Assembly: GCF_017875315.1 (NCBI RefSeq)
Contig: NZ_JAGGMM010000001.1
Location: 124,001-188,000, forward strand
Direction: 5' to 3'
Source: Methanomicrobium sp. W14
GTDB lineage: Archaea > Halobacteriota > Methanomicrobia > Methanomicrobiales > Methanomicrobiaceae
DNA length: 64,000 nucleotides
Positions within the stretch are counted from its first letter, which is position 1; each line of letters starts with the position of its first letter. Positions 7,046 through 51,671 of the stretch are shown here, piece after piece. A program made the position numbers and the translations under genes. The notes beneath the pieces were generated by a model. That model did not search any database. It saw nothing but the letters and a program-made list of their open reading frames with translations, and had not been told where the DNA came from.

Positions 7046-8310
7046 ATTATCATTGCTGTTCCTATTGCCGGTTATGCTCTGGTATATGATTCAAATGCAG
7101 ATCCGCAGACAACTACAGATGTTCTTTTAAAACAGGAAAACGGAACATACCTGGAGGTTATCCATGTTGTTGTCGGTGGAGGGTCGGAAGAGGAAATCGG
7201 TTATGAACTGGGAAATATCGGTATCAGTGAATTCGATTCATTCCTGATGCCATTTGATGATCCTTCATACGGAGAGGAAAAAGAAGAGTACATCAAAAAT
7301 TATGACAGTGTTTTGTACGAACGTCTGCGGGGGTAAAGCGGGCATATCAGCTTAGTGAAGACAATTATAGTTATGATGCCAGTTTCCCGATATACGTAAC
7401 ACTTTATTCTTCGTGTTCCGCTCTTTATTTCCCTCCTTCCTCAACGCAGGACGGTCATGCAATTGTAGGCAGGAATATGGAATGGGATTATAACCCCGGT
7501 TTAGATCCATTTACCGGTATTGATGATGGAAACTTCGAAGATACAATCGTCGAAGAAATGGGGACACTTGTACATGTTGTAGAGATATATCCTGACGAAG
7601 GATATGCCACTCTGGTATTGGGGACAATGGACCTCCTCAACGGTGTCGTTGACGGAATAAATGAAAAAGGACTTTACGTTGCGACTCTTCAGGACGGAGA
7701 TACTTATAATGATCCTTTTTCTGACCTTGCCGGGTCGACGAGTACAGGACTGAATTTTATGCAGGTGCTTAGATCAGTCCTTGAGCATTGTGCAACGGTT
7801 TATGAGGCAAAACAGAAGTTGTCAGAGACAGAGATTTTTATTCCTTATATGGGTCAGCACTTTCTTATATGCGACGATTCAGGAGACGCGACAATCGTAG
7901 AGTTTGATAACGAAACACGTGAGATGATTTTTATTGATTACCGGGACACTCCGGTTCCTCTAACCAACTATGCCGTTCACCTCAGCCCTGACGTCAGCGT
8001 GTGCGAACCGGAAAATCCCGATGACCCGCATGACGATTACCTGAGAAGTGCAAAACTTCACGACTATATTTCCGGTCATGAAGGTGAGTTCACGGAAGAC
8101 GATGCCTGGGGGGAAATGAAGGAAGTCGAGGCAAATGTTGATGCAGGTAACGAAACTGTTGACAGGCTTTTGTGGAGGGTTTTAACAGACCTTACCAACA
8201 GGACAATGACTGTTAAATTTTTCATGAAAGACGGCCCGATAAATAACCAGACGCTTAAAACCCGTGACCTTGTTCTTTCAAAGCCTTTTACCTTCAGTCT
8301 GGAAAGATAA
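7046..8310 (+). pseudogene. C45-family (acyl-CoA:6-APA acyltransferase-like) Ntn hydrolase, frameshifted and lacking a start
   Basis: The intact downstream frame (from about 7477) is a long C45/linear-amide-hydrolase C-terminal part. Upstream, a second frame from about 7046 encodes a signal-like hydrophobic stretch (ILIIIAVPIAGYALVYDSN) and the family N-terminus (TYLEVIHVVVGG...EIGYELGNIG) and stops at TAA 7334. Adding one G to the G5 run at 7329-7333 joins both and restores YSSCSALYFPPS, whose Cys is the expected autocatalytic nucleophile, followed by GHAIVGRNMEWD. There is also no ATG, GTG or TTG before the hydrophobic stretch, because an in-frame TAA sits just upstream. So at least one lesion is real unless several sequencing errors coincide. 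Downstream-only translation would lack the nucleophile. Confidence 0.65.
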
Positions 8311-40190: not shown

Positions 40191-41018
40191 TCACAAAACA
40201 ATGTCTGTCCCGTACACTTTTTCAGGAGTGTCCTTGTGGATTCTGAAGGCGTCCTCCTCTGTTATTGCGCCCGAGGAAAGGAGCCTGCGTGTAAATCTCG
40301 GAACTGATTTGGGGCCAAGGACCGAACCGGGGCGGGATGGGTCGTCCATGTGGTCGCTTTCCATAGTAAATAAGCGTTTTTCCGCGGCAAGTTTTCCAAT
40401 GTTTTCATCTTTCGCGATCATCGACGGTGTAAGGGGCGTATCTGGAGTCGCGTAGTGCTTAACGACCCTGAAAGGCTGAATACCCATTTTTTTTGCAGTC
40501 CCGCATACATCAGTGCAGGGGCCTGTCTCGGCGTGAATCTGGAGAGCACAGTCGCAGTCCTTTGCAAGTTCAAGGGCGTGTTCAAGTATCCTGTTTGAGG
40601 CTTCCCATATATCCTCAGGCACGGGGTAGTGAGGTCTTCCGCTTTTCAGCGCGACAGCCCTTTCGTCTACGACATATTCTGCTGCAAGGTCCAGTCCTTC
40701 TTTTAATATCTCCTCTGCACGTGAAAGGGAAATTTTTCCGGCAAGTTTTGTAAGCTCTGCCGGGTGGACGCCCATGATGGGAAATGCGCAGATTCCCTCG
40801 TCTTTTACCATCCCGGCGGTTTTCAGGTTCAGATCAAAGATTTTCCTGAAGTCCTCTCCGCTTGCGGGAGTTATGCCGAATGTCCACGTGGGGAGTGTCA
40901 CAAGAAATATATGCGTTCCTCCTGCACGCTTAAAGTCCTTTGCGGCTTCCATCCCCCTCCCGTTTATGATGTCTATGTGGGTATGGTCGTCTGTTACAGG
41001 GAGGTCTTCTGGCATCAT
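40191..41018 (-). CDS. TatD-family metal-dependent hydrolase
   Basis: A 275-aa amidohydrolase-fold protein. The metal ligand motif HxH is in VTDDHTHIDIING at the N-terminus, further ligands are likely in GVHPAEL, LQIHAETGPC and VVKHYATPDT. Family members are deoxyribonucleases or hydrolases of unknown substrate. It overlaps the mptD stop by 4 bp (ATGA). Confidence 0.85.
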   Translation of the reverse strand: MMPEDLPVTDDHTHIDIINGRGMEAAKDFKRAGGTHIFLVTLPTWTFGITPASGEDFRKIFDLNLKTAGMVKDEGICAFPIMGVHPAELTKLAGKISLSRAEEILKEGLDLAAEYVVDERAVALKSGRPHYPVPEDIWEASNRILEHALELAKDCDCALQIHAETGPCTDVCGTAKKMGIQPFRVVKHYATPDTPLTPSMIAKDENIGKLAAEKRLFTMESDHMDDPSRPGSVLGPKSVPRFTRRLLSSGAITEEDAFRIHKDTPEKVYGTDIVL

Positions 41019-41454: not shown

Positions 41455-43602
41455 TCATATCAGCTTTATTAGCCCGTGTCTCGGCTCCATAGCTTCCCCA
41501 GTTCTTAAGAGATCATCGATTCTCTTCCTGATGTCGTCTTTTTCATGGCCTTTCTGTATAAGAGCCTGTACAATTTCTTCAATCTGGGCGTATCCGTTTT
41601 CATCCGCGTGTGACTTCACGGCGTCCTTGATTTCCCTTATGATATCCCTTCTCTGTTTTGGAATTCCGGTCACAAGTTTGTCTATGTCAAAGCTCTCGGT
41701 TTCGGGGTCGTATGCGACATCCCTTAAGCACCTGTCGACTATTCTTATGACACGCTCAGCGTCGGCCTCTTCGATGTTCTGGCTGAGCCTGACCCTTGCG
41801 CTCGCCTCGGCAAGTCTTACAAGGGCTTCAAGCTGCCTTGCCGTAACCGGGACAGGCTTGCTGTTGTCTGATGCGAGTTCTCTTAAACTCAGGTAGTATG
41901 ATATCAGCTTCTCCTTTGCCTCGGGTTTTAAGAGCGGGAAGCAGTTTCTTTTTGAGTATGCAATGTATTTCCTGAATAAAGAAGGTTCTATTTCAGGAAG
42001 AACTGGAGCAAGTTTCTGCTCAATGTAGTCTTCGTCTATCCACTCGTCGGGGTTCTTTTTGTTGTGCTCAATGAGCTCTCCGACCTCGTGAGCCTTTAAT
42101 ATATGCTCACCGATTGCCCTGTCAAGAACGTCGTTAGGTTTGTCCCTCATGACAAATATCAGGTCGAAACGCGACAGAAGCGAAGGGGGCATGTTTATCT
42201 GCTCGGCTATCGGTGCGTATTCATCGAATCTTCCCATCTTCGGGTTTGCAGCCCCGAGAAGGGCGCAGCGGGAGCGCAGAGTTGCGGTAATGCCTGCCTT
42301 TGCGATAGATATGGACTGCTGCTCCATCGCCTCGTGAAGCGAACTTCTGTCGTCCTTGTTCATCTTGTCCATTTCATCCACTGCGGCAATACCCATGTCG
42401 GCAAGCACAAGCGCACCGGCCTCAAGTGTCCACCTGCCGTCTCCGAACTCGTCCTTGACGGCGGTTGCGGTAAGACCTGCGGACGTCGAAGACTTTCCGC
42501 TTGTGTATATGCCCCTCGGCGAAAGCCTGATGACATATCTTAACATCTGCGATTTTGCAATACCCGGGTCACCGACAAGGAGCATATGGATGTCACCCCG
42601 AAGGTGGCTTCCGTCAGGAAGGGATTTCATTATTCCCCCAAAAAGAATCAGGGAGATTGCCTCTTTAACCTCGTCGTTTCCGTATATTGATGGTGCGATG
42701 GAGTGTGCAAACTTGCGGTATACCTCAGGGTCACGGCTAAGTTCAATTATGCTCTGCTCGTCCTCGTCAGATATTGCCACCTCCTCAAATTCCTTTTCAC
42801 CTACTTCGATGGAATTCGCCTCGAGGTATATGTCAAACAGTGAGCTTTTGTTCCCGTATGAGACTCTCTGGATAGACCGTAAAATCCCGTTTATTACAAT
42901 CCTGTCTCCGGGGGATGCGGTTGCAACGAGGTCGTCCTGGACATCCACGTCCAGAGTTTCGGGTTGCTCACCGCCCCTTAAACCCTCCGGCGACTCCTGT
43001 ATCCTTATCTTCTGCACGTCTATGAATTTTGAAAGCTGGGGGACAAGCTCCATTTTAGTAGGGCGTTCGCACTGCGTGCAGTTCCTGTAGGGCTCCTGGA
43101 ACTTTCCGAACCCCTGCGAATATGGTGGTGTAAGAGTTCCGCAGTTAAGGCACCTGAATACTGCATAAGTGAGTCTTGGGCGAACCTCGGTGACCTTTCT
43201 TATTATACCTTCAACCGAAAGAAACGAGTTAATATGGTGCGCACGTATCTCCCTGACGTCAATCTTTTTTGGAAGCCTGATGAACCTGACATTGACGTCG
43301 TCAGCTTTGTCTTCCTCATCCTTTGTAAAGATAAGGTTGTTCTGCTTTATCGCGTCCTTTACATCAGAAAGGACCTTACCGGGGTTTTTGATAAGATCAT
43401 CTGCAAGACCGAGACCTTTTTTTCCCCATTTCTCAAGCTTCTGGTAGTCTATTACAAGTGACCTTTTATACGGAAATTCCCTTGCAATTTCCCCTAATTC
43501 CGCCTTGTAGTGCTTTTTTAAAAATTTACTCCAGTCACCTGCCTTGTCTGTGACATTCGCCTTTATCTCTTCTTTTTCAGGTGAGTCCGGGAAGTCGTCC
43601 AT
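41455..43602 (-). CDS. mcm: minichromosome maintenance (MCM) replicative helicase
   Basis: A 715-aa hexameric replicative helicase. The N-terminal domain has a zinc ribbon (CLNCG near residue 151, CTQCE near 175). The AAA+ core has Walker A GDPGIAKSQML, Walker B AVDEMDKMNKDD and the arginine-finger motif LLSRFDLIFVM; a winged-helix domain ends the protein. ATG 43602 is used because it lies 4 bp after the rfcS stop; the frame extends 16 codons upstream into rfcS without similarity. The rfcS-mcm pairing suggests coordinated replication-gene expression. Confidence 0.97.
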   Translation of the reverse strand: MDDFPDSPEKEEIKANVTDKAGDWSKFLKKHYKAELGEIAREFPYKRSLVIDYQKLEKWGKKGLGLADDLIKNPGKVLSDVKDAIKQNNLIFTKDEEDKADDVNVRFIRLPKKIDVREIRAHHINSFLSVEGIIRKVTEVRPRLTYAVFRCLNCGTLTPPYSQGFGKFQEPYRNCTQCERPTKMELVPQLSKFIDVQKIRIQESPEGLRGGEQPETLDVDVQDDLVATASPGDRIVINGILRSIQRVSYGNKSSLFDIYLEANSIEVGEKEFEEVAISDEDEQSIIELSRDPEVYRKFAHSIAPSIYGNDEVKEAISLILFGGIMKSLPDGSHLRGDIHMLLVGDPGIAKSQMLRYVIRLSPRGIYTSGKSSTSAGLTATAVKDEFGDGRWTLEAGALVLADMGIAAVDEMDKMNKDDRSSLHEAMEQQSISIAKAGITATLRSRCALLGAANPKMGRFDEYAPIAEQINMPPSLLSRFDLIFVMRDKPNDVLDRAIGEHILKAHEVGELIEHNKKNPDEWIDEDYIEQKLAPVLPEIEPSLFRKYIAYSKRNCFPLLKPEAKEKLISYYLSLRELASDNSKPVPVTARQLEALVRLAEASARVRLSQNIEEADAERVIRIVDRCLRDVAYDPETESFDIDKLVTGIPKQRRDIIREIKDAVKSHADENGYAQIEEIVQALIQKGHEKDDIRKRIDDLLRTGEAMEPRHGLIKLI

Positions 43603-43606
43603 TTTT

Positions 43607-44584
43607 TCAGCTGTTTTTATATTTATCCGCGCTCTGTATGCAGCGTGCAATCAGGGCTTCCATCTGTATGTTCTGGTTTGCACCCTCGCTTATCCTGAAA
43701 TCTGTGTCGCCGAGGTTTTTTATCAGGTCAACCTTAAGCGCCCTGTCTGTTGTCCTGTCGTTAATAAGGGCCCTGTAAAGCTGGTTTATAAGTTCGTTGG
43801 GAGCGATTCCCCTTTTGATTGTGAGCTCATTAAGCCTGTGCTCTGAAGCTTCAAAATCACCGTCAAGTATTATCTGCAGAAGGTCGACAATCTCATCCGG
43901 CCTTGCGGTTGATGTAATCTCGTATATCATGTCTTCGGAAATTTCATTTCTGATGATTGCTGCTCCCTGAAGGGCGTTTATGGCCTTTCTCATGTCGCCC
44001 TGCGCAACGTAGATTATTGCGCTTACAGCCTCTTCCGTTATTTTCAGGCCTTCATTGTCACAGATTCTTTTTATCTCTTCTGTTACAGCATCCCTTCCGA
44101 GTGGCCTGAACCTGTATATGGCGCACCTGCTCTGGATTGGATCAATTATTTTTGAGGAGTAGTTGCAGGACAAAATGAACCTGCATGTATGGGCATAATT
44201 TTCCATTGTTCTCCTGAGGGCTGACTGCGCGTCGTTTGTGAGCGCGTCTGCCTCATCAAGAAAGAGGATTTTGAATGTCGCGCCGCCCATGGGAGCTGTG
44301 CGCGCAAATTGTTTTATCTGGTTTCTGACGACATCAATGCCTCTTTCATCGGATGCATTGAGTTCCCTGAAGTTCACCTGCCAGTCGTCGCCGAAAAACT
44401 CCCTTGCAAGTGCAACGGCAGAGGTGGTCTTGCCTATTCCGGCGCTTCCGGTGAACAGGAGATGGGGCAGGCTCTTAGAGGCGACGTAATTTTTAAGCCG
44501 TTCTACAATCTCCTTTTGACCTACAATATCGTCCAGTGTTTTCGGGCGGTATTTTTCAATCCATATTGTATTGGTTCCATCCAT
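43607..44584 (-). CDS. rfcS: replication factor C small subunit
   Basis: A 325-aa AAA+ clamp-loader subunit beginning with [18 protein letters not shown]. Walker A is [13 protein letters not shown], Walker [10 protein letters not shown] and sensor/arginine-finger SRC is in [12 protein letters not shown]. It loads PCNA together with the large subunit. It is the first gene of the rfcS-mcm unit. Compared with the paralogue at 34210-35208 all catalytic motifs are intact. Confidence 0.97.
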
Positions 44585-44813: not shown

Positions 44814-45554
44814 ATGATGCAGAACCAGGATCCGGTATTGAGATTTTTTGCAGGAGAGCTTGAATTTTTAGAGCAGGAAGATGACGGTTTAATCCTGTTA
44901 CCGACAGGTCAGCCCGTAAAGACCGTATATATTTCGGGTGTTTTAACTGAGGTAAAAAAGGGCCCCGGAGGTTATGTCTCCGGTGCACGGGTTGCTGACC
45001 CTTCCGGGGTTTTTATAGTTAAATGCGGAAAGGACAAGGGATTTTGCTGCTCCAAATTCCTGAAAACCGGGATTTTGTCATATGTTTCGGTCCTGGGAAT
45101 TATTGCTTACGACAAAAAGGAGTCCTGTTTTGCGGTGTTTCCTGAATCGGTTAATAAAGTCTCAAAAAGTGAACGTAATTTGTGGATACTTGCAGCGGCA
45201 GACTCAACTTTGAAGCGTCTTGAAGAGTTTAGGGGAACATGCAACAGTTTATGTCATGACGGCTACACGGAAAAAATAATCGCGGTTATTGAAAACGCCC
45301 TGAAATTTGTTGATACGGAAAAAACAGGAAATGATGCATCCGGTCTGAAAGAAGATGACTCCATGCACGACTGCGCAAAAATTGTAGAGATTATCCGGTC
45401 AGGCAGCACGAAAAAGGGTATTTTTTCAGACGACTTTTATTTGGCATGTGAATTACTGGGAATTTCAGGGGAAAGCGCACAGAAGTGTGTTGAAAAGCTT
45501 GTCGAAGACGGTGAGCTGTACCTTCCGCCGGGCGGATATATAAAACTGATTTGA
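44814..45554 (+). CDS. RPA-associated OB-fold protein
   Basis: A 246-aa protein. Residues ~35-110 look like an OB fold (VYISGVLTEVKKGPGGYVSG, RVADPSGVFIVKCG), and the C-terminal ~70 residues like a winged helix (IFSDDFYLACELLGIS...VEKLVEDGELYLPPGGYIKLI). This matches archaeal RPA-associated proteins that work with single-strand-binding RPA. It overlaps the phosphoesterase gene downstream. TATAAAT is only about 10 bp before the ATG, so the true start could be later, but no nearby in-frame ATG exists. Confidence 0.75.
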   Translation: MMQNQDPVLRFFAGELEFLEQEDDGLILLPTGQPVKTVYISGVLTEVKKGPGGYVSGARVADPSGVFIVKCGKDKGFCCSKFLKTGILSYVSVLGIIAYDKKESCFAVFPESVNKVSKSERNLWILAAADSTLKRLEEFRGTCNSLCHDGYTEKIIAVIENALKFVDTEKTGNDASGLKEDDSMHDCAKIVEIIRSGSTKKGIFSDDFYLACELLGISGESAQKCVEKLVEDGELYLPPGGYIKLI

Positions 45555-45559
45555 GTGAG

Positions 45560-46345
45560 ATGATGATTCCTGAATTTCTGCCTTTCGGCCCTGCGTTTGT
45601 TATTGAAAACACTATCCGTGTTCTTGTCGTCGCCGACACTCACTTCGGTGCCGAGACCGGGCTTGCAAGGCATGGTCTTCACATAAAAAGCAACAGTTCG
45701 GACAGGCTGTCGCGCCTTATGAAATGCATTGAAGTCTCAAAATGCGACCTGCTGGTACTTTTGGGTGACGTCAAGCACTCGATACCTGTTACGACAAGGC
45801 AGGAGTACAGGGAGCTTCCTGATATAATTGAGAAGATACGTTCCAAAACGGATTTCAGGGTCCTTCCCGGAAATCATGACGTGGGAATAGAAAAATTCCT
45901 TAAAGAAGGTGAACTTCTCCCCAAAGAAGGCAGCGTAATTGACGGTACAGGATATATGCACGGTCATACGTACCCGTCTGAAGACCTCCTGGGAAAACTT
46001 ATTGTCACAGGTCATACGCATCCTGTCCTCTGTCTTTACGACGATGTAGGGTGTTCACTGAAGTCGCAGCCGGCATATGTCCTTTCAAGGATAGACCCTA
46101 AATCCGTCAGAATAAAAACTTCAGGGGTTATTAAAGAGAAAATCGAAAAAACACGTGTACTCTTTGTACCCGCATTTTTTGAGCTTGCAGGGGGAATTGA
46201 CGTAAGGGAGATTAAAAAGAGCGGGCTTGGGCCTCTTTCGAGGTGCATCGACGAGGACAGCGCCGAGGTTTTCTTAAGCGACGGGACGTACATAGACAGC
46301 CTGAAGGGACTGATGCGTGATGAGTGCGATAGAGCTTCTGGATGA
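45560..46345 (+). CDS. calcineurin-like metallophosphoesterase (COG1407 type)
   Basis: A 261-aa phosphoesterase with all metal motifs: VADTHFGAE, LLGDVKHSI, LPGNHDVG and VTGHTHPVL. The related MPE in bacterial Lhr clusters is a DNA phosphodiesterase. ATG 45560 is used; an in-frame TTG at 45551 overlaps the previous stop. It overlaps the Lhr gene by 26 bp, so OB protein, phosphoesterase and helicase are co-expressed. Confidence 0.9.
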   Translation: MMIPEFLPFGPAFVIENTIRVLVVADTHFGAETGLARHGLHIKSNSSDRLSRLMKCIEVSKCDLLVLLGDVKHSIPVTTRQEYRELPDIIEKIRSKTDFRVLPGNHDVGIEKFLKEGELLPKEGSVIDGTGYMHGHTYPSEDLLGKLIVTGHTHPVLCLYDDVGCSLKSQPAYVLSRIDPKSVRIKTSGVIKEKIEKTRVLFVPAFFELAGGIDVREIKKSGLGPLSRCIDEDSAEVFLSDGTYIDSLKGLMRDECDRASG

Positions 46346-49013
46346 AAGAATAAGGGCTCTTCTTGAGAAGAGAAACTTTACCGAGCTTTCGGATACACAG
46401 GAGGAGGCAATACCCTCAATAATGAGCGGTAAAAACACCCTGTGTATAGCACCCACAGGAACAGGCAAGACCGAGAGCGCCATGCTTCCTGTATTCCACA
46501 AACTCCTTAACCAGGAAGGTGAAGGCTTCAGGGCTTTATACATAACCCCTCTGCGCTCCTTAAACAGGGATATTCTTTTAAGGCTTGAATGGTGGGCAAA
46601 TGAGCTTTCCCTGTCTGTAGGTGTAAGGCACGGGGACACGAAGCAGGCGGAGAGAAGAAAACAGGCGTTAAAACCTCCGGACCTTCTTATAACAACTCCC
46701 GAGACCCTCCAGGCGATGTTTACTGGAAAAAGGCTTCGTGAACACTTAAAAAACGTAAAATATGTTATAATTGATGAAATCCACGAGCTCGCCGGCAACA
46801 AAAGGGGAGCGCAGTTGTCCGTTGCTCTTGAAAGGATTGTTGAATACGCGGGAGAATTTCAGAGAATCGCTCTTTCGGCAACTGTGGGGAACCCGGATGA
46901 TGTTGCAGGATTTCTGTGCGGAAAAAGGTCTTACGAAATTGTAAATATACCTGTTGCCCCTCTTCTGTCTGTCGACGTTAAATATGCAGGCGAATCATTT
47001 TCAGACCAGTCGGATGCTGTTGAAAAGTCGATAGACTCTGATGTTTCCACTCTTGTATTTGTAAATACGAGAGTCACCGCCGAAGCCCTCGGTCACAGGC
47101 TTTTTGAAAGGGGTGATGTCGACGTCCATCACGGGTCGCTTTCCCGGGAAGTGAGAATAGAGGCTGAGGACAGGTTTAAGCGCGGAGACCTGAAGGCCCT
47201 TATATGCACTTCCTCGATGGAACTCGGCCTTGATATAGGTCATGTAGGCCAGGTTGTCCAGTTTGGCTCTCCGCGTGAAGTCTCAAGGCTTCTTCAGAGG
47301 GTCGGACGTGCGGGTCACAGGCTTGATGCGGTCTCGAAAGGAAAAATTCTTGCAACGGGTTTTGACGACCTGCTCGAATCTCTTGTTATAGTAAGAAGGG
47401 CGCTTTCAAACGGCTGCGAAAATCTCTCTCTCATAACAAACGCCGCAGACGTACTTGCAAACCAGATATCGGCAATAGCTGTCGAATACGGTGAAATAAG
47501 TGCTGAAAGGGTAAAGGGCATAATAAAAAGGTCAGCATGCTTTTTTGACGTGGACATGGTGTTTGATGATGTCTGCCGCCAGATGGAGGAGCACAGGCTG
47601 ATAAGGATCATTTCCGGCATGATCATCAAAACAGGGAGGAGCCGCAAATACCTGTATTCAAACCTCTCCATGATACATGACGAGAAGAAGGTGAAGGTCT
47701 ATGATATCATATCAAGGCGCTTTGTCGGTACACTTGACGAGTCTTTTGTGGTTGGGTTTGTGTATACAGGTGCCGTTTTTATCACAAAGGGCCAGTTATG
47801 GCAGGTTTTGGCTATAGAGGACGGAATTATAAAGGTGGAGCCTGCATCAAGGGTCAAGGGAGAGCTTCCGTCATGGGAAGGTGAACAGATCCCGGTCCCG
47901 TTTGAGGTAGCAATGGAGGCCGGAAAACTGAGGCGGACACGCAGGTTCAAAGGTTATAAGACTGACCCGGCATCGGTTGCGTACGCCCGTGACCTTTTGT
48001 CCGGGATGGACAAAAGCGGTTCGCCTGTCCCGTGCGACAATTTAATCACGCTTGAGCATTACGACGAGGGTGTCGTAATGAACGTCTGCGGAGGACATAA
48101 GGCAAACGAAGCTTTGGGAAGGGTTATATCCGTTCTTCTTTCGGCAAGGTTCGGTACGTCTGTAGGAATTGAGACAGGTGCATACAGGATACTTTTCAGG
48201 CTCCCCGGTGAAGTCAGGGCAACTGATGTGCTCGAGGTTATAAACACTACCGAGCCCTCGACTTTAAGGGGCATTCTTCAGCTTGCCCTGAAAAGGACTG
48301 TCATATACAAGTGGAAGCTTGTTCAGGTTGCAAAAAAGTTTGGGGCGATTGATGCCGATGCAGATTACGAGCGTATAAGTATACATCGTCTTACAGACCT
48401 TTTTGACGGGACTGTCATACAAAAAGAAGCATACAGGGAGCTTTTTACAGTCAACATGGACGCCGGAAGGGCAGAGTACATTATGAGCCTTATCCAGTCG
48501 GGCAAAATTTCCGTCTGCATTGCACCGTTAAGCGTTCTTGGCAGGGAAGGAATATCATCTTCAAGGGACGTAATACCTCCCGAATCCATGTCGCAGGCCG
48601 TTATATCAACCATAAAAAAGCGTCTTGAAAACGACAATATCATACTTTTCTGTATGAACTGCCGGAAGTGGAAGATCAAAACAACAGTCGGGCGTGTCCC
48701 GGAGGATATCGTATGCCCCAGGTGCGGTGCCCGTCTTATTGCCGCATTAAAACCGTATGAAGAGGACTACATAAAAGTGGTATCAAAAAAAGAGAAGACG
48801 AAGGAGGAGAGGGGGATTGAGGTGCGTCTTTTGAGAAATGCGAATATCGTTCTGTCAAGCAGAAAAGCGGCAGTAACCGCATTTGCCGCAAGAGGCGTCG
48901 GGCCTGATGCAGCATCCAGAATTATTGCGACAATGGCAAAAGGTGACAATTTTTATAAAGAAATTCTCAAAGCGGAGAGAAATTATATTAAAACCCACCG
49001 CTTCTGGCAGTAA
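46320..49013 (+). CDS. lhr: Lhr-family ATP-dependent helicase
   Basis: An 897-aa superfamily 2 helicase with the Lhr-Core plan. Motif I is APTGTGKTESA, motif II IIDEIHEL, motif III ALSATVGNP, motif VI LLQRVGRAGHR. After the RecA domains come winged-helix and Lhr-specific regions. A C-terminal zinc-ribbon-like CMNCRKWKIK...CPRCGARL (around residue 780-805) adds to the usual core. GTG 46317 directly precedes ATG 46320 and either may be used. Bacterial Lhr is a DNA-damage-induced 3'-5' helicase; archaeal relatives act on DNA/RNA hybrids. Confidence 0.93.
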   Translation: MSAIELLDERIRALLEKRNFTELSDTQEEAIPSIMSGKNTLCIAPTGTGKTESAMLPVFHKLLNQEGEGFRALYITPLRSLNRDILLRLEWWANELSLSVGVRHGDTKQAERRKQALKPPDLLITTPETLQAMFTGKRLREHLKNVKYVIIDEIHELAGNKRGAQLSVALERIVEYAGEFQRIALSATVGNPDDVAGFLCGKRSYEIVNIPVAPLLSVDVKYAGESFSDQSDAVEKSIDSDVSTLVFVNTRVTAEALGHRLFERGDVDVHHGSLSREVRIEAEDRFKRGDLKALICTSSMELGLDIGHVGQVVQFGSPREVSRLLQRVGRAGHRLDAVSKGKILATGFDDLLESLVIVRRALSNGCENLSLITNAADVLANQISAIAVEYGEISAERVKGIIKRSACFFDVDMVFDDVCRQMEEHRLIRIISGMIIKTGRSRKYLYSNLSMIHDEKKVKVYDIISRRFVGTLDESFVVGFVYTGAVFITKGQLWQVLAIEDGIIKVEPASRVKGELPSWEGEQIPVPFEVAMEAGKLRRTRRFKGYKTDPASVAYARDLLSGMDKSGSPVPCDNLITLEHYDEGVVMNVCGGHKANEALGRVISVLLSARFGTSVGIETGAYRILFRLPGEVRATDVLEVINTTEPSTLRGILQLALKRTVIYKWKLVQVAKKFGAIDADADYERISIHRLTDLFDGTVIQKEAYRELFTVNMDAGRAEYIMSLIQSGKISVCIAPLSVLGREGISSSRDVIPPESMSQAVISTIKKRLENDNIILFCMNCRKWKIKTTVGRVPEDIVCPRCGARLIAALKPYEEDYIKVVSKKEKTKEERGIEVRLLRNANIVLSSRKAAVTAFAARGVGPDAASRIIATMAKGDNFYKEILKAERNYIKTHRFWQ

Positions 49014-49048: not shown

Positions 49049-49603
49049 TCACATAATGCTGTCAAGTTTTTGTTCGAGAAAATCAAGACCCCTTTTAACG
49101 TCGTCAAGGTTTTTTCCGCCTGTTAAAATTATTTTTCCTGAAGAAAAGATAAGTGCGACAATTTTCGGCTCCTCGATTCTGTAGACAAGTCCGGGGAACT
49201 GCTCAGGCTCGTACTCTATGTTTTCAAGGTTTAACGTTACGACAACCCTGTTTAAGTTGACCTGCTTTCCGATGTCATATGAACAGACAATGTTTGTGAT
49301 AGCAACGTTGGGCTTATCAAATGTTTTTACGCCAACATTTTTCAGTGAACTGATAATTATATCAAGTCCTGCCTTAAGGTCATCCTTTTTCCTTATGCCT
49401 GTGAGTACAATTTTTCCCGAAGAAAAAATGAGGGAAGCAATTTTAGGTTTTTCAATCCTGTATACAGCTCCGGGAAATCTTTTGGTATTTAATTCACAGG
49501 TATCAATCTGCCTGGAAACTTCTTCCAGACTGATTGAGTCTGCAATCTCTCCTGAGGCGACGATATTCTCTATTTTAAGGGATTCATAATTCTTGTCAGC
49601 CAT
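49049..49603 (-). CDS. tbp: TATA-box-binding protein
   Basis: A 184-aa general transcription factor with the two direct repeats of the saddle fold: IENIVASGEIADSISLEEV...FPGAVYRIEKPKIASLIFSSGKIVLTG and ITNIVCSYDIGKQVNLNRV...FPGLVYRIEEPKIVALIFSSGKIILTG. Length is usual. Monocistronic; it converges on lhr with a 35-bp gap. Confidence 0.97.
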   Translation of the reverse strand: MADKNYESLKIENIVASGEIADSISLEEVSRQIDTCELNTKRFPGAVYRIEKPKIASLIFSSGKIVLTGIRKKDDLKAGLDIIISSLKNVGVKTFDKPNVAITNIVCSYDIGKQVNLNRVVVTLNLENIEYEPEQFPGLVYRIEEPKIVALIFSSGKIILTGGKNLDDVKRGLDFLEQKLDSIM

Positions 49604-49802: not shown

Positions 49803-51671
49803 ATGAATTCTGATAGCGGTGATTATTATACCCCCCAGGAGGTGGCTGATGCCCTCAAAGTGGAGGCCAGGACAGTCCATTCATGGCTGAGAGACGGTGT
49901 GATGAAAGGTGTCAAAGTGGGCAGGCTGTGGAGAATCCCGCAAAGCGAAGTTGATAAGGCGAAAAAAAGTGATTCCTCTGAATATGTCACAGGCTGCGAT
50001 AAAAAAGAGGAAATACCGATGAATATGAAGGATTACGACTCCGTATATGAAAATTTTACAATAGATGTCCCGGAGTACTTCAACTTTGGATATGATATCA
50101 TAGACAAATGGGGAAAGACTGACAGAAACAAACTTGCAATGATCTGGACCGACCAGAATGGTAATGAAAAAAAATATTCATTCAGGGACCTTAAGAACCT
50201 TTCAAACCAGGTTGCAAACATACTTTTAAAGTACAACATAAACAAGGGCGACCGCGTCCTGATAATGCTTCCGCGTATCCCGGAATGGTGGATCTTTGTA
50301 ATCGGGCTTATAAAGCTTGGAGCGGTATACTGCCCCTGCCCTGTCCTCCTGACGCCAAAAGATTTGAAGTACAGGATAAATGCAGGGAAGTTCAAGATGG
50401 TCATAACAGACCTTGGAAATGCACCGAAGATTAATGAAATCTGCAATGAATGCCCTACTCTGAGGGCAAGAATGGTTGTCGACGGAGAGCTCCCCGGATG
50501 GTCCAGCTACATTCACGAACTTCTGTATCCTGCACCTGTATCGCACAAATCCGTAAGCATCCCTGAAGACATGAGGACACGCTCGACTGACCCCATGCTT
50601 ATATACTTTACATCAGGGACTACGGGCGAGCCCAAGATGGTTCTTCACAACAATGCACACCCTCTTGGTCACAGGGTTACGGCCGAGCTGTGGCATGACC
50701 TGACGCCAAACGATGTTCACTTTACCTCATCTGATACCGGATGGGCAAAATGCGGATGGGGAAAAATATTCGGTCAGTGGATAGCAGGAGCATGCATTCT
50801 TGTCATTGATTTCAGGGGCAAATTTGAAGCCACGCAGCTCCTGCCGTTCATAGAAAAATATGAAGTCACAAGTTTCTGCTGCCCGCCTACGATATACCGC
50901 ATGCTTATACTCGCGGATTTAAGCAAGTTTGACCTCTCCGAGCTTCGCCACTGCACGAGTGCTGGAGAGCCCCTCAATCCTGAAGTAATAAAGATTTGGA
51001 AAGAAGGAACTGGTCTTACTATTCACGAAGGGTACGGTCAGACTGAGACATGCTGTGCAATTGCATCATTCACATGCATAAAAAGCAAGCCCGGCTCCAT
51101 GGGAAAACCATCTCCGGGGTGGCATATAGAGCTTCATGACGACGACGGAAAACCTGTCGGAAATTACGAGGAGGGAAGAATCGCAGTCTCTCTAAAACCG
51201 CACCGCCCGGTTGGCCTTATCGTGGAATATCTGGACAACCCCGAGGCGAACAAAGAGTCTTTCACAGGAGACTTCTATTACACCGGAGACAAAGCCTACA
51301 GGGATGACGACGGTTATTTCTGGTTTGTCGGGCGCAATGATGATGTCATTAAAAGTTCAGGGTACAGGATAGGCCCGTTTGAGGTTGAATCCGCCCTTAT
51401 TGAGCACCCTGCGGTAAAGGAATCCGCCGTTGTGGGCTCACCTGACAGGATACGCGGTAAGATTGTAAAGGCGTTCATAGTCCTGAATAACGGCTATGAG
51501 CCCAGCGATTCTTTGGTAAAGGAGATCCAGAATTTTGTGAAAAATATCACAGCGCCATACAAATACCCGCGTGCGATAGAGTTTGTGGACGAACTGCCAA
51601 AAACAATATCCGGAAAAATCAAGAGGAACCAGCTTCGCGAGCAGGAACTTAAAAAATTCCGGAGCAAATAA
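49803..51671 (+). CDS. AMP-forming acyl-CoA synthetase fused to N-terminal helix-turn-helix domain
   Basis: A 622-aa protein. Residues ~8-58 are an excisionase/MerR-type DNA-binding domain (YYTPQEVADALKVEARTVHSWLRDGVMKG, KVGRLWRIPQSEVDKA). A short linker leads to a full acyl-CoA synthetase (about 75-620) of the medium-chain/acetyl type: YFTSGTTGEPKMVLHN (P-loop), GYGQTE, YYTGDKAYRDDDGYFWFVGR and the catalytic C-terminal lysine in TISGKIKRNQL. It would activate a fatty or short-chain acid to acyl-CoA via acyl-AMP. GAGG at 50007-50010 sits 8 bp before an internal ATG 50019 at the enzyme start, so an enzyme-only product is possible. DNA binding is inferred. Confidence 0.9.
   Translation: MNSDSGDYYTPQEVADALKVEARTVHSWLRDGVMKGVKVGRLWRIPQSEVDKAKKSDSSEYVTGCDKKEEIPMNMKDYDSVYENFTIDVPEYFNFGYDIIDKWGKTDRNKLAMIWTDQNGNEKKYSFRDLKNLSNQVANILLKYNINKGDRVLIMLPRIPEWWIFVIGLIKLGAVYCPCPVLLTPKDLKYRINAGKFKMVITDLGNAPKINEICNECPTLRARMVVDGELPGWSSYIHELLYPAPVSHKSVSIPEDMRTRSTDPMLIYFTSGTTGEPKMVLHNNAHPLGHRVTAELWHDLTPNDVHFTSSDTGWAKCGWGKIFGQWIAGACILVIDFRGKFEATQLLPFIEKYEVTSFCCPPTIYRMLILADLSKFDLSELRHCTSAGEPLNPEVIKIWKEGTGLTIHEGYGQTETCCAIASFTCIKSKPGSMGKPSPGWHIELHDDDGKPVGNYEEGRIAVSLKPHRPVGLIVEYLDNPEANKESFTGDFYYTGDKAYRDDDGYFWFVGRNDDVIKSSGYRIGPFEVESALIEHPAVKESAVVGSPDRIRGKIVKAFIVLNNGYEPSDSLVKEIQNFVKNITAPYKYPRAIEFVDELPKTISGKIKRNQLREQELKKFRSK

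Follow-up and report, generated by a model that had tools for sequence, protein, structure and literature searches.

A conserved RPAP-MPE-aLhr1 operon in Methanomicrobiales links an RPA2-type protein to a putative helicase-nuclease repair pair

Lhr-type helicases adjoin calcineurin-type phosphoesterases in described bacterial and archaeal systems. In this study, we analyzed such a locus in a methanogen of the order Methanomicrobiales, at positions 44814-49013 (+) of a 64-kb window, the window being the whole stretch of DNA analyzed. According to the open reading frame (ORF) list, the locus holds three tightly packed genes, all on the + strand, for an RPA-associated protein (RPAP), a metallophosphoesterase (MPE) and an aLhr1-type helicase. 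As in the Lhr-Core/MPE cluster of P. putida, the helicase lies next to a calcineurin-type phosphoesterase; in contrast to that cluster, the window helicase carries a CxxC...CxxC segment towards its C-terminus, and an RPA32-type gene comes first in the window operon. No counterparts of the ligase and exonuclease partners of the bacterial Lhr cluster appear among the neighboring genes that were identified. MrfA-MrfB of Bacillus, which acts on mitomycin damage, likewise combines a helicase carrying a C-terminal four-Cys segment with a nuclease; its helicase and nuclease families differ from those of the window.

Among archaea, a COG1407 gene lies upstream of alhr1 in 6/9 Methanomicrobiales, 8/20 Methanosarcinales and most Halobacteriales (PMC8301817). 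The helicase group and its neighbor are the same as at the window, whereas the RPA2-type gene and the joint loss described below are not mentioned in the accessible part of that article. In haloarchaeal RPA1-type operons (Halobacterium rfa2-rfa7-yhcR; Haloferax rpa1-rpap1 with a phosphoesterase), a COG3390 protein is similarly followed by a phosphoesterase; however, RPA41 leads there and is missing at the window, and an Lhr gene is unmentioned in the accessible part of PMC5924565. Archaeal and eukaryotic RPA2 (RPA32) and Stn1 combine an OB fold with a C-terminal winged helix as RPAP does. Unlike the setting of RPA2, the window locus has no adjacent RPA1-type partner gene: the 5' neighbor of RPAP is a replication factor C (RFC) gene on the opposite strand, so no RPA41/RPA1-type gene stands in tandem. 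The linkage of MPE with aLhr1 (PMC8301817), the RPA-COG3390-phosphoesterase order (PMC5924565) and the assignment of RPAP as RPA2 (PMC8329085) are already in print, while the full RPAP-MPE-aLhr1 set across the order and the disappearance of MPE and Lhr together from loci that keep RPAP are new. No paper joining all three genes was found, a weak negative with supplementary files and subscription papers outside its scope, and the string "lhr" has 0 occurrences in PMC7776575, PMC5924565, PMC2643942 and PMC11686378.

The features of the locus are as follows.

44814..45554, + strand: RPAP, RPA32/RPA2-type (COG3390-like), 246 amino acids (aa); predicted OB fold, long helix and C-terminal winged helix
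45551..46345, + strand: MPE, COG1407/TIGR00024-like calcineurin-type metallophosphoesterase, 264 aa from TTG
46317..49013, + strand: aLhr1-type superfamily 2 (SF2) helicase, 898 aa from GTG; likely start at the ATG directly after (46320)
46449..46472, + strand: Walker A motif of the helicase, APTGTGKT, residues 45-52, invariant except T49 in 11 homologues
48651..48725, + strand: zinc-ribbon-like CxxC...CxxC segment of the helicase (C779, C782, C800, C803), from the four-Cys alignment

For MPE, an ATG at 45560 or 45563 is a likelier start than the TTG because the Met at 45563 is invariant in 11/11 homologues. The gap between RPAP and MPE is approximately 8 nucleotides, and the Lhr ATG sits 26 nucleotides within the MPE gene.

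With a probability of roughly 0.55, we read this locus as a three-gene repair operon derived from an older RPA41-RPAP-MPE-aLhr1 operon, in which MPE, a putative nuclease, and aLhr1 would be a functional pair and RPAP would be an RPA2/RPA32-type protein that binds single-stranded DNA (ssDNA) and offers a winged helix for docking. Gene order is the first line of evidence. An MPE match was obtained in 54 of 60 related genomes of the order, with six families represented. Across the order loci (53 fetched regions and the window), RPAP, MPE and Lhr follow one another on one strand in 53/54, and in the remaining one (L079) a contig end truncates the locus; because the loci were chosen by MPE match, this order-wide figure is conditional on MPE. 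In a set of 80 named loci, which overlaps the 60 genomes, the trio is complete in 73; of the other 7, 6 are truncated by contig ends and 1 has no script label (L150, though its MPE is present at 7141-7809); L053 is a frameshifted draft. The named loci nearest to the window trio are from Methanomicrobiaceae, such as Methanomicrobium mobile. The usual neighbors of the trio across the order are MCM-RFC and the TATA-binding protein (TBP) gene, and the trio is also intact where MCM and RFC lie outside the fetched stretch (L055, L057, L060, L072, L082). Since the trio is conserved across genomes, a chance arrangement is ruled out.

The best support found for the pairing of MPE with aLhr1 comes from the six MPE-negative genomes. 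Three of them, from the same family (G011, G015 and G009), have RPAP in place. In G011 (one contig, 99% complete), MCM-RFC is followed by RPAP and then TBP, and MPE and Lhr are missing; genome-wide searches of G011 failed to find MPE, and their sole Lhr-like hit was a distant helicase (E 1e-53). In the congener G016, all three genes are present (L044). Loss of the whole trio in G011 was ruled out, as a family-specific profile found RPAP still present. Similarly, the intact contig of G015 shows MCM-RFC, RPAP and then an acyl-CoA-synthetase-like ORF, with no MPE or Lhr; the trio is still present in G010, G021 and G024 of the same genus (L040, L049, L052). In G009, a short contig shows the end of RPAP with TBP approximately 330 bp away. 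The remaining MPE-negative genomes are G025 and G026, which are undecided, and G002 (74% complete), which has Lhr fragments and possibly MPE fragments on separate contigs. Collectively, MPE and Lhr were lost together at least two times, probably three, with RPAP kept each time. This joint loss indicates that MPE and aLhr1 behave as a functional pair, and the retention of RPAP indicates that it does not serve solely as a subunit of an obligatory three-protein set. The original prediction had proposed a complex of the three proteins, and an obligate complex of this kind is ruled out by the persistence of RPAP without MPE and Lhr in these three genomes. Its broader idea of a distinct archaeal repair arrangement survives in part: the trio with an ssDNA-binding-type partner is conserved, but much of the linkage was already in print and the obligate trio is rejected.

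Based on Pfam matches, the third gene encodes, in order, DEAD, Helicase_C, WH_Lhr and DEAD_assoc, which is the Lhr core of two RecA-like domains, a winged helix and domain 4. Its helicase motifs are conserved among 11 homologues, and the best solved relatives are 5v9x and 7lhl. The AlphaFold2 model of the C-terminal 233 aa has a predicted local distance difference test score (pLDDT) of 81.5 and a predicted template modeling score (pTM) of 0.58. Foldseek found no match for it with an E-value of 0.001 or lower, and VIA-align gave a best Z of 2.9, with weak rubredoxin-like rows at Z ~2.2 that are compatible with a zinc ribbon and prove nothing. Past the CxxC...CxxC segment, aLhr1 has a further conserved stretch, GxGPxxAxxI, which presumably represents a helix-hairpin-helix type motif. 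The four Cys are invariant in 11/11 homologues and in 43/43 C-terminal segments, and the pattern is present in 60/60 loci from the wider phylum. A C-terminal cysteine-rich motif marks aLhr1 as opposed to aLhr2, and aLhr2 is reported absent from Methanomicrobiales, according to PMC8301817. By its Lhr core and four-Cys motif, the gene product is classed at the sequence level as an aLhr1-type helicase.

For MPE, the Pfam Metallophos match has an E-value of 3e-9. The match to NCBIfam TIGR00024 has an E-value of 7e-18, but its 65.1 bits stand against a cut-off of 115.2, which makes MPE a relative and not a member by that model. Profile matches extend to SbcD (E 4e-8) and the P. putida nuclease MPE (6nvp, E 3.9e-7). 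The motifs D29-x-H31, GD73, GNHD107-110, H137-G-H139 and GH155-x-H157 are intact, and the putative metal-binding residues are invariant in an 11-row alignment. Moreover, the two-metal calcineurin-type motif set is complete, the strict pattern being found in 80/80 named and 50/53 full-length order sequences; the 3 sequences without it differ only at the His of GDxxH.

RPAP has no Pfam or NCBIfam match. However, its profile, built from 70 homologues, matches P. abyssi RPA32 (8oej_B) at E 1.2e-7 over positions 19-258 of 258, covering both the OB fold and the winged helix. Its AlphaFold2 model (pLDDT 91.1, pTM 0.70) consists of an OB fold (residues ~35-115), a long helix and a C-terminal winged helix (residues ~183-246), and Foldseek matched it to P. 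abyssi RPA32 (8aaj_B, E 1e-8), human RPA32 and S. pombe Stn1 (3kf6_A, TM-score 0.89 on the target, root-mean-square deviation 1.9). Over the whole length, TM-scores on the query are a moderate ~0.4-0.5, probably owing to a different placement of the two domains relative to each other. Because of the RPA32 profile match and the RPA32/Stn1-like predicted fold, the "OB-fold protein" of the original prediction is best described as an RPA2-type protein with predicted ssDNA binding, which agrees with its proposal of a single-strand-binding partner. Archaeal RPAPs have already been named RPA2 orthologues with winged helices (MacNeill, PMC8329085). The other assignments made there, a COG1407-type phosphoesterase and an Lhr-type helicase with a C-terminal zinc-ribbon-like segment, adjacent as in the bacterial cluster, are borne out by the profiles, Pfam matches, motifs and invariant Cys above and by the adjacency seen at the window, order and named loci; a gene order that is not conserved, which it named among the outcomes that would refute it, is contradicted by the neighborhood survey. 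Separately, the haloarchaeal-type RPAP frames (L194-L198, L208, L223, L224, L264-L270) are long, at ~500-990 aa from stop to stop, and their profile matches run from the OB fold to the winged helix, so that a long insert probably lies between.

Outside the order, a strong Lhr match was found in 113/120 genomes of the phylum. From 93 non-order genomes with a match, 60 aLhr1 loci were chosen, spread over families and on contigs with flanks (for G072 and G136, the second Lhr match was used). In 20/60, an MPE gene is found no more than 1.5 kb upstream of Lhr and on its strand, and in L197 the Lhr frame overlaps MPE. The complete RPAP-MPE-Lhr order is present in 11/60, and RPA41 stands in front in 7 of those. 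In L264-L270, which look haloarchaeal by their high G+C content, RPA41-RPAP-MPE occurs in 7/7 loci even with Lhr elsewhere. The simplest history would be an ancestral RPA41-RPAP-MPE-aLhr1 cluster that was broken up differently in each lineage.

A rival account is that the linkage is historical only, RPAP being a second RPA2 subunit for replication or general ssDNA binding, and MPE and aLhr1 a separate repair pair sharing the old RPA-operon transcript. We hold this to be possible, as the strongest competitor of the repair operon. It is consistent with the retention of RPAP in the three genomes that lack MPE and Lhr, and with the position of the locus in a replication neighborhood of RFC and MCM. 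Furthermore, another contig of the window genome has an RPA41 gene immediately followed by one for a second COG3390-like protein, which is 200 aa long and lacks a winged helix, and this RPA41-short COG3390 pair was found in 21/21 order genomes with a fetched locus, that is, the window genome and 20 others (L227-L247). RPAP as the only RPA partner of the genome is thereby ruled out. In contrast, a purely historical linkage fits less well with the recurrence of RPAP-MPE in the haloarchaea-like loci with Lhr elsewhere, and with the trio being kept where MCM and RFC are outside the fetched stretch, for example in L072 and L082.

The trio RPAP evolves unusually fast compared with its operon neighbors and with the RPA41-linked paralogue. 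Across the same ten order loci, RPAP shares 23-30% identity with its window counterpart, MPE 44-67% and Lhr 60-77%, and the RPA41-linked short COG3390 protein retains 52-70%. In a 61-row tree, a branch of length 1.06 with 100/100 support separates 15 trio RPAPs of the order, whose own terminal branches are long; the root, and hence the strict monophyly of the order RPAPs, is undecided. This divergence would suit a RPAP repurposed in the order as a fast-changing, lineage-specific adaptor that is no longer an RPA subunit, which we regard as improbable given that OB fold and winged helix are both kept and that RPAP is retained without its supposed partners.

Returning to the repair operon, the most likely role, by analogy with relatives, would be to repair DNA that is cross-linked or carries helix-distorting damage, acting on single strands coated by RPA. 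In Halobacterium, rfa2, rfa7 (COG3390) and yhcR (phosphoesterase) are co-transcribed, and deletion of yhcR lowers survival approximately 100-fold after 120 min of mitomycin C (PMC5924565); operon order suggests that YhcR is the orthologue of the window MPE. The Sulfolobus alhr1 deletion is sensitive to ultraviolet light (UV), cisplatin, 4-nitroquinoline 1-oxide (4-NQO), metronidazole and H2O2, and its homologue co-purified with ssDNA-SSB (PMC10003305). Moreover, mycobacterial Lhr protects against three cross-linkers (PMC11323726), and the winged helix of Pyrococcus RPA recruits primase and PolD (PMC11686378). These phenotypes of relatives, together with the Pyrococcus recruitment, favor an ssDNA-directed repair of helix-distorting or cross-linked DNA. 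In such a scheme, distorting or cross-linking lesions, presumably also the relevant type in methanogens, would stall the fork and lay bare ssDNA. RPAP would coat this ssDNA via its OB fold, either by itself or together with RPA41, whose gene lies elsewhere, and the RPAP winged helix could serve as a docking site that recruits aLhr1. The helicase would then unwind, probably 3' to 5', towards the lesion, and MPE may cut the exposed strand with two metal ions.

A stronger version, in which the three proteins assemble into a helicase-nuclease machine directed by the RPA32-type subunit and clear stalled forks of cross-links or bulky adducts, the winged helix recruiting both enzymes to coated ssDNA in a nucleotide-excision-like archaeal pathway, appears doubtful; if true, it would be an archaeal counterpart of human RPA32 recruiting repair enzymes. 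An RNA-directed role, with MPE and Lhr1 acting on RNA or RNA:DNA hybrids (RNA processing, R-loop removal) and RPAP shielding the displaced strand, is very improbable, as the published alhr1 and MPE deletion phenotypes are DNA-damage sensitivities (PMC10003305, PMC5924565) and RPAP has an RPA32-type fold, even though archaeal aLhr2 is described as a DNA/RNA helicase in the title of PMC8301817 and mycobacterial Lhr unwinds RNA:DNA hybrids (PMC11323726).

Several observations weigh against the repair operon as we read it. MPE is not nearby in 35/60 non-order aLhr1 loci, and a Methanosarcina-like family has MPE-Lhr without an adjacent RPAP (L168-L174), with RPA41-RPAP elsewhere (L257-L259). Having been kept without MPE and Lhr, RPAP has another job and need not touch them, and its strong sequence divergence could mean a changed or relaxed function. 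In addition, the Halobacterium study (PMC5924565) reports that cells deleted for rfa7 (COG3390) do not show the strong drop in survival seen on deletion of yhcR. We therefore consider RPAP a predicted separable ssDNA-binding partner, inherited from the older RPA operon. For the repair of helix-distorting and cross-linked DNA in archaea, the nearly order-wide operon, which ties an RPA2-type protein to a putative nuclease and a helicase, offers a small, testable set of partners; relatives of its proteins already have mitomycin, UV and cisplatin phenotypes, and the shared disappearance of MPE and Lhr from loci that keep RPAP marks these two as the first pair to test.

The genes flanking the trio, assigned by ORF with Pfam/NCBIfam, are as follows.

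43607..44584, - strand: RFC small subunit, divergent flank
41455..43650, - strand: MCM helicase, divergent flank
49049..49603, - strand: TBP, convergent flank

In five loci of one family (L065, L070, L075, L080, L085; f3, g11), two tandem MCM genes lie beside RFC. A few genes from the trio, the window encodes a TatD-related DNase at 40191-41018 (-) (Pfam E 4.9e-22), and TatD-DNase-like ORFs also start near MCM in L284, L286 and L289. On the other side, 49803-51671 (+) encodes an acyl-CoA synthetase-type enzyme (AMP-binding and C-terminal domains) with an N-terminal excisionase-type helix-turn-helix (HTH_17, E 1.1e-11), an architecture also present in a genome of the same genus (L285).

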